From Gemmatimonadota bacterium (GTDB lineage Bacteria > Gemmatimonadota > Gemmatimonadetes > Gemmatimonadales > Gemmatimonadaceae), in assembly GCA_023249375.1 (NCBI GenBank), contig JAHFCT010000014.1, forward strand, positions 1 through 64,000: a stretch of DNA of 64,000 bases. Reading direction: 5' to 3'. Positions 31,729 to 32,420 of this stretch are shown here, piece after piece. The notes under the pieces are model-generated. The model did not search any database. It had not been told where the DNA came from and saw only the letters and a program-made list of their open reading frames with translations. Positions within the stretch are counted from its first letter, which is position 1; every line of letters starts with the position of its first letter. The translations under genes and the position numbers were made by a program.

Positions 31729-31838
31729 CTATCCTCCCACCACCGGCCCACGGGAACACAAGTTGCCGAATCGGGTGTTCATCCAGTAGATAAGAAGGTC
31801 ATCCGGAACACGGTCCTTCACCAGAGGAGTCCCCCCAG

Positions 31839-32420
31839 ATGTTGTCACGTGTCGTCGTGCTCACCGTGCTGGCCGCCGCCGCTGTCGGGTTGGCGTCGCG
31901 GCGTGCGTGGGCGCAGGGCGACGGCCCCCAGGTCGGCGACATGGCGCCCGACTTCTCCCTCCCCGGCGCATCCAAGGCCGGTGTGATGGAGAAGCAGCTG
32001 CGCCTCTCCGACTTCCGCGGGCAGGCCGTCGTCATCTCGTTCTTCCCCAAGGCGCGGACCAAGGGCTGAACCGTCCAACATGAGGCGTACCGGGATCAGT
32101 ACGCCACGATCTTCAACGGCGGCAAGGGTGTGGTCGCCATCTCCATCAGCTCCGATGGCGTTGGCGAACTCGCGTCGTGGGCCAAGGACGCCAACTTCCC
32201 CGTCTTGTTCGCCAGCGACACGTCTGGGGAAATCGCGGAGAAGTACGCGACCACCGGCACCGGCATCGGTCCGTTGAAGAAGTTCTTCAAGCGTGTGGTG
32301 TTCGTGGTGGGGCCGGACGGGCGGGTCGCGCAGGTCATGCGCCCCTTCTCGGCGCTGTCGCAGGATTCCTACGCGCAGCTCGATTCGGCGGTCGATCGCG
32401 TGGTGAAGACCGGAAAGTAG
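31839..32420 (+). CDS. Probable selenoprotein peroxiredoxin (in-frame TGA at 32067)
   Basis: Exported peroxiredoxin of 193 residues if the TGA at 32067-32069 is read as selenocysteine. The signal peptide is LTVLAAAAVGLASRRAWAQ. The frame is identical before and after TGA: before it come GDMAPDFSLPG and VVISFFPKARTKG, after it TVQHEAYRDQY, VVAISISSDGVGELASWAKD and FKRVVFVVGPDGRV, together one complete AhpC/Bcp-type domain. The TGA falls exactly at the peroxidatic cysteine of the family PxxxTxxC motif (P, then T, then codon 77). The protein has no cysteine. A hairpin starts 14 nt after TGA. ATG 31839 follows AGAGGAG. A gene finder would split it into 31839-32069 and 32130-32420. The alternative, a nonsense mutation, would be a coincidence at this codon. 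Confidence 0.88.
32084..32105 (+). promoter_or_regulatory. SECIS-like hairpin downstream of the in-frame TGA
   Basis: GGCGTAC (32084-32090) pairs perfectly with GTACGCC (32099-32105) around the 8-nt loop CGGGATCA. The stem starts 14 nt after the TGA and the loop guanines lie about 23 nt after it. Bacterial SECIS elements sit just downstream of UGA inside the coding region, with a guanine early in the apical loop, so position and shape fit. Confidence 0.7.

Follow-up and report, generated by a model that had tools for sequence, protein, structure and literature searches.

A predicted exported selenocysteine peroxiredoxin without cysteine, encoded across a TGA codon in Gemmatimonadota

Introduction

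The locus studied here raises the question of whether an in-frame TGA codon marks a broken gene, a sequencing error or a selenocysteine (Sec, U) at the active site of a peroxiredoxin. It lies in a stretch of 64,000 nucleotides (contig JAHFCT010000014.1, positions 1 to 64,000 of the forward strand; hereafter the window) from a Gemmatimonadota genome (GCA_023249375.1). Gemmatimonadota are known largely from metagenome-assembled genomes, and no report of selenoproteins in this phylum was found in the literature searched. Sec-peroxiredoxins with a TxxU motif are already known from other sources (PMC13188914, PMC9312934, PMC1794560, PMC1088965), and the bacterial ones (COG1225/PF00578, TxxU) carry Sec at the peroxidatic position and are decoded by means of SelB and a SECIS element (reviewed in PMC13188914, PMC9312934). 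An earlier note, made from the letters of the window, had proposed such a gene here, with its TGA read through by SelB.

Results

Sequence comparison confirms that positions 31839-32420 of the forward strand hold one Bcp/AhpC-type peroxiredoxin gene with a TGA at the position of the peroxidatic cysteine. The frame runs from ATG 31839 to the stop codon TAG 32418-32420 with TGA 32067-32069 as its sole interruption, and both the PF00578 profile and the structural model require the halves on either side of the TGA, so the earlier view of two same-frame segments as a single gene stands. The same holds for three further claims of that note. The TGA is codon 77 and falls exactly on the C of PxxxTxxC (P70-x3-T74-x2-U77 in the translation, with U for C); the translated product has no cysteine among its 193 residues and thus no resolving cysteine; and ORF calling breaks the gene at the TGA, only the 3' part being called, as a 96-aa ORF from GTG 32130. 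A scan of the window for genes in which a single TGA is flanked on either side by sequence of coding-like composition yielded four matches including this gene; two of the others are antisense to an aconitase gene and one is an apparent ordinary gene boundary just before it. The features of the locus are as follows.

31823..31829, forward strand: probable Shine-Dalgarno sequence AGAGGAG, 9 nt ahead of the ATG, read from the sequence
31839..32420, forward strand: Sec-peroxiredoxin gene, from start ATG to stop TAG; translated with Sec at the TGA, it gives 193 aa with U at 77
31839..31913, forward strand: probable signal peptide spanning residues 1-25, cut between AWA and Q26 (hydrophobic N-terminus, conservation of A25/Q26)
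32046..32069, forward strand: putative active-site signature PKARTKGU (PxxxTxxU), from translation and homologue comparison
32067..32069, forward strand: TGA codon 77, predicted Sec at the peroxidatic position (TGA in 51, TGC/TGT in 23 distinct homologous copies)
32084..32105, forward strand: predicted bacterial SECIS apical stem-loop, stem 32084-32090/32099-32105, loop 32091-32098 (CGGGAUCA), from covariation and bSECIS constraints
32292..32294, forward strand: R152, invariant in 48 homologues (alignment)

The product matches PF00578 (AhpC/TSA) over residues 32-165 with an E-value of 7.6e-24 (84.5 bits; cut-off 26). Its score lies below every curated NCBIfam cut-off: the best-scoring model is PRK09437 (Bcp-type thiol peroxidase; 72.1 bits, cut-off 140), and with 39.6 bits against a curated cut-off of 270 it falls outside the PrxU equivalog NF040737. 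The AlphaFold model has a mean pLDDT of 90.2 (lower, 65-67, for residues 1-30), and its top matches in the PDB are Bcp-type peroxiredoxins (TM 0.77-0.88 by target length). R152 stands where the catalytic arginine of peroxiredoxins would be expected, and the homologues retain the Thr of TxxU, with Ser in rare copies. There is no cysteine in the product and no further cysteine in the mature part of any homologue (0/74), which places the protein outside the 2-Cys (Bcp-type) class. The low-confidence N-terminal end (residues 1-30) precedes the well-modelled fold, and A25 and Q26 are nearly invariant in 48 homologues; judging from this N-terminus, the protein is probably exported.

Nearly all of the closest homologues come from Gemmatimonadota assemblies. 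Codon 77 is TGA in 9/9 orthologues from separate assemblies (68-88% identity), and TGC stands at the position in a relative with 42% identity. Among 74 distinct copies, taken with an extraction pattern that left room for A, S, T, G or N as well at the peroxidatic position, TGA was found in 51 and TGC or TGT in 23, with no third residue. The dN/dS ratio after the TGA, between the window and close orthologues, is 0.08-0.21, indicating purifying selection. At least seven Sec/Cys switches are needed by the tree, and well-supported branches force three of these. Two side observations were made in these copies. Phe, Tyr, Ile or Ser stands in place of the Pro of PxxxTxxC/U in 20/51 TGA copies, which belong to sister lineages (L057, L081-L083, L085-L100), and in 0/23 Cys copies. 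Some genera of the family have tandem peroxiredoxin pairs (loci L061-L065, L067, L069, L071, L073, L080), which may be Sec/Cys, Sec/Sec (L080) or Cys/Cys (genome G087, which has no Sec machinery).

On a wider scale, a peroxiredoxin match was found in 248 of 298 Gemmatimonadota genomes. Among the matches listed (137 genomes), 126 genomes carry a one-TGA copy and the other 11 carry stop-free (cysteine) copies only; the position of the TGA was checked in the 51 distinct copies, and the figure for the remaining genomes is a count of one TGA only. All 126 have selA or tRNA-Sec. SelA was found in 123 of them, and the seeming exceptions (G182, G210, G114) all have tRNA-Sec. Both SelA and tRNA-Sec are missing from 9 of the 11 Cys-only genomes, the exceptions being G006 and G081, which have both. 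The association of a TGA copy with SelA among the matches listed gives a Fisher p of 3e-10, a value that ignores kinship: related genomes share ancestry, and the genome counts are therefore not independent draws. By these comparisons the Sec-peroxiredoxin appears to occur in most Gemmatimonadota, and members without the machinery mostly have Cys at that position.

The bSECIS model describes an upper stem of 4-16 bp, a loop of 3-9 nt with G in its first two positions (mostly followed by G or U), a UGA-to-loop distance of 16-37 nt and an MFE of <= -7.5 kcal/mol (PMC13188914). The hairpin at 32084-32105 agrees with all of these, having a stem of 7 bp, a loop of 8 nt whose second and third positions are both G, a spacing of 21 nt and an energy of -11.8 kcal/mol. 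The energy by itself is unremarkable (z -0.66 relative to dinucleotide shuffles, and 7.7% of synonymous shuffles give a fold at least as stable), and an Rfam scan of the locus gave chance miRNA/sRNA matches only and no SECIS family. It is the comparison across the 74 homologues, not the folding energy, that sets the hairpin above chance. The six inner pairs are kept in 50/51 TGA copies, compared to 19.3 expected under synonymous shuffling and to 2/23 Cys copies. The outer pair covaries (G-C, C-G, U-A, A-U), and one copy has a compensatory A-U in the pair next to it, with both amino acids changed. Codon +7 is TAC in 51/51 TGA copies versus 14/23 Cys copies, and the Asp codon +9 is GAT in 50/51 versus 8/23 (p 4e-9). 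The Arg codon +8 is CGT or CGG in 51/51 TGA copies versus 7/23 Cys copies, where CGC is found in 16/23 (p 4e-11); CGT or CGG gives the loop G followed by U or G, which is the G[G|U] pattern of the bSECIS model. Control codons outside the hairpin did not differ between TGA and Cys copies. Judged by these codon counts, the synonymous sites of the hairpin are frozen in TGA copies and drifting in Cys copies.

The source genome, a 3.8-Mb draft that is 95.9% complete, contains tRNA-Sec (73.3 bits, UCA anticodon), SelA (552.1 bits), SelB (325.7 bits) and SelD (372.6 bits). SelD is needed to make Sec, and selD has an in-frame TGA of its own. This gene (G000 C103:118298-119421, within L020; also L107) immediately precedes the tRNA-Sec gene and has the TGA in FARCAGU-ASK, at what we take to be the active-site Cys/Sec position of SelD. 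It terminates in a TGA stop, and UGA is thus not reassigned in general. Other selenoproteins in the genome were sampled through SelD, Fdh-alpha and PF00578. Formate dehydrogenase is the commonest bacterial selenoprotein, and the matched stretches of the best Fdh-alpha homologue of the source genome (G000 C45:18451-20685) are free of in-frame TGA. The Fdh-alpha homologues of G006 and G063 do carry an in-frame TGA.

Discussion

It is very likely that the locus encodes a Bcp/PrxQ-type peroxiredoxin that is exported and has a single Sec. SelB would decode UGA77 as directed by the SECIS element, and the enzyme would reduce peroxides at the expense of an external reductant, TlpA/CcdA being the best candidate. 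Comparison among genes and genomes establishes UGA read-through under selection, the SECIS element, the Sec machinery and the peroxiredoxin family and fold. The remaining parts of the earlier note have held up as well. The 7-bp hairpin that it saw 14 nt after the TGA (GGCGUAC/GUACGCC, loop CGGGAUCA) does have its early loop guanine, at position 2; the search for the Sec machinery that it called for found tRNA-Sec, selA, selB and selD; and the homologues have Cys codons in 23 copies beside TGA in 51. The sequencing error that it had named as a refutation was not borne out, as nine near orthologues from separate assemblies keep the TGA. Read-through by SelB is therefore supported, as far as genome data can tell, by the machinery, the TGA/Cys homologues and the conservation of the SECIS element.

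A sequencing or assembly error, with a TGC or TGT cysteine codon misread as TGA, would agree with the TGC or TGT of the more distant homologues, but the same TGA in the nine near orthologues from separate assemblies excludes it, and the TGA recurs in 51 distinct copies across the phylum with SECIS codons frozen in TGA copies only. We regard such an error as having virtually no chance of being the explanation. That a plain gene caller yields only the 96-aa ORF from GTG 32130 could point to a pseudogene made by a nonsense mutation or to two separate small genes. Against this stand the purifying selection after the TGA, the TGA at one position throughout the phylum and the need of profile and model for both halves, and this alternative is extremely improbable. 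Error, pseudogene and two genes are all excluded in practice by the conservation of the TGA and by purifying selection.

UGA is reassigned in some bacteria, and the homologous residue is Cys, as would be expected if UGA were read as Trp or Cys through a general code change or a suppressor tRNA. However, selD in the source genome and many of the homologous peroxiredoxin genes terminate in TGA, on which grounds a general code change is rejected, and the genome has a full Sec system, with which TGA copies co-occur and which 9/11 Cys-only genomes lack among the matches listed; a reading of this kind is thus very improbable. It has also to be considered that a selenoprotein with a peroxiredoxin fold could act mainly as something other than a peroxidase, for example as a thiol oxidoreductase, a redox sensor or a handler of selenium or metalloids. 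The peroxidase function is predicted from sequence and model, and the loss of the Pro in 20/51 TGA copies of sister lineages would suit such a role, but the peroxidatic site retains its Thr/Ser and Arg, a UxxC motif is absent and the closest structures belong to Bcp/PrxQ peroxidases. We consider a mainly non-peroxidase role unlikely and infer that the Sec-peroxiredoxin has peroxidase activity.

Among known proteins, the predicted product resembles Sec-peroxiredoxins such as PrxU of Eubacterium acidaminophilum in having Sec at the peroxidatic position of PxxxTxxU, in belonging to the AhpC/TSA family and in its SelB/SECIS decoding, but it differs from PrxU in scoring below the PrxU cut-off, in its probable signal peptide and in having no cysteine. 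It shares its best NCBIfam model and nearest solved structures with the Bcp/PrxQ thioredoxin-dependent thiol peroxidases. Bcp uses Cys, often with a second, resolving Cys, whereas the protein of the window has Sec alone and is probably exported. Peroxiredoxin-like thiol:disulfide oxidoreductase selenoproteins (UxxC/UxxU) are likewise bacterial PF00578 selenoproteins; here, in contrast, the motif is TxxU and the third residue after U is not Cys, and the protein thus does not belong to that subfamily.

In the proposed mechanism, SelB with Sec-tRNA(Sec) would read UGA77 as Sec, directed by the stem-loop that begins 14 nt downstream, and the signal peptide would carry the protein out of the cytoplasm. 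There the selenol of U77, aided by T74 and R152, would reduce H2O2 or organic peroxides and become a selenenic acid. As the chain holds no second Cys or Sec, the oxidised selenium would have to be reduced by another molecule, for which a TlpA-like thioredoxin of the periplasm, which may receive electrons through the membrane via CcdA, is the best candidate. A convergent tlpA-ccdA pair, consisting of a TlpA-like CxxC thioredoxin and a DsbD_TM/CcdA protein, adjoins the Sec-peroxiredoxin gene in 15/26 loci from other lineages (L110-L112, L115-L124, L127, L130), and in three more of the 26 the pair, or part of it at a contig end, lies within about 4 kb. The link is a lead, since a convergent arrangement rules out co-transcription and ccdA also has other functions. 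No ccdA-tlpA pair adjoins the gene in the window's genus; the source genome has an intact pair elsewhere (contig C50). The CcdA-TlpA pair is thus a plausible electron source for the Sec-peroxiredoxin, and in the window's genus a guess, because ccdA-tlpA pairs also serve cytochrome c maturation and adjacency is missing there.

As far as the searched literature shows, the spread through the phylum, the probable export without a resolving cysteine, the tandem Sec/Cys copies and, in other lineages, the neighbouring CcdA-TlpA pair are new; the unusual sister clade without Pro is a further notable feature. Since plain ORF calling breaks genes at TGA, such genes are probably mis-annotated widely.

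The use of selenium must be explained by its benefit to the cell. A Sec-peroxiredoxin seems to be present in most Gemmatimonadota, and the formate dehydrogenase of the window's genus shows no in-frame TGA. It is possible, although we hold it only tentatively, that the Sec system of the phylum is kept largely for one exported, cysteine-free, one-Sec peroxiredoxin (plus SelD) to which a CcdA-TlpA thioredoxin relay of its own would pass electrons across the membrane, that the selenol lets the active-site Pro, conserved elsewhere, go in sister lineages, and that loss of the machinery has repeatedly forced the replacement of Sec by Cys. The repeated Sec/Cys switches, the tandem copies of three kinds (Sec/Sec, Sec/Cys and Cys/Cys) and the almost perfect co-occurrence with the machinery together amount to a natural experiment that bears on why cells retain Sec for defence against peroxides outside the cytoplasm.
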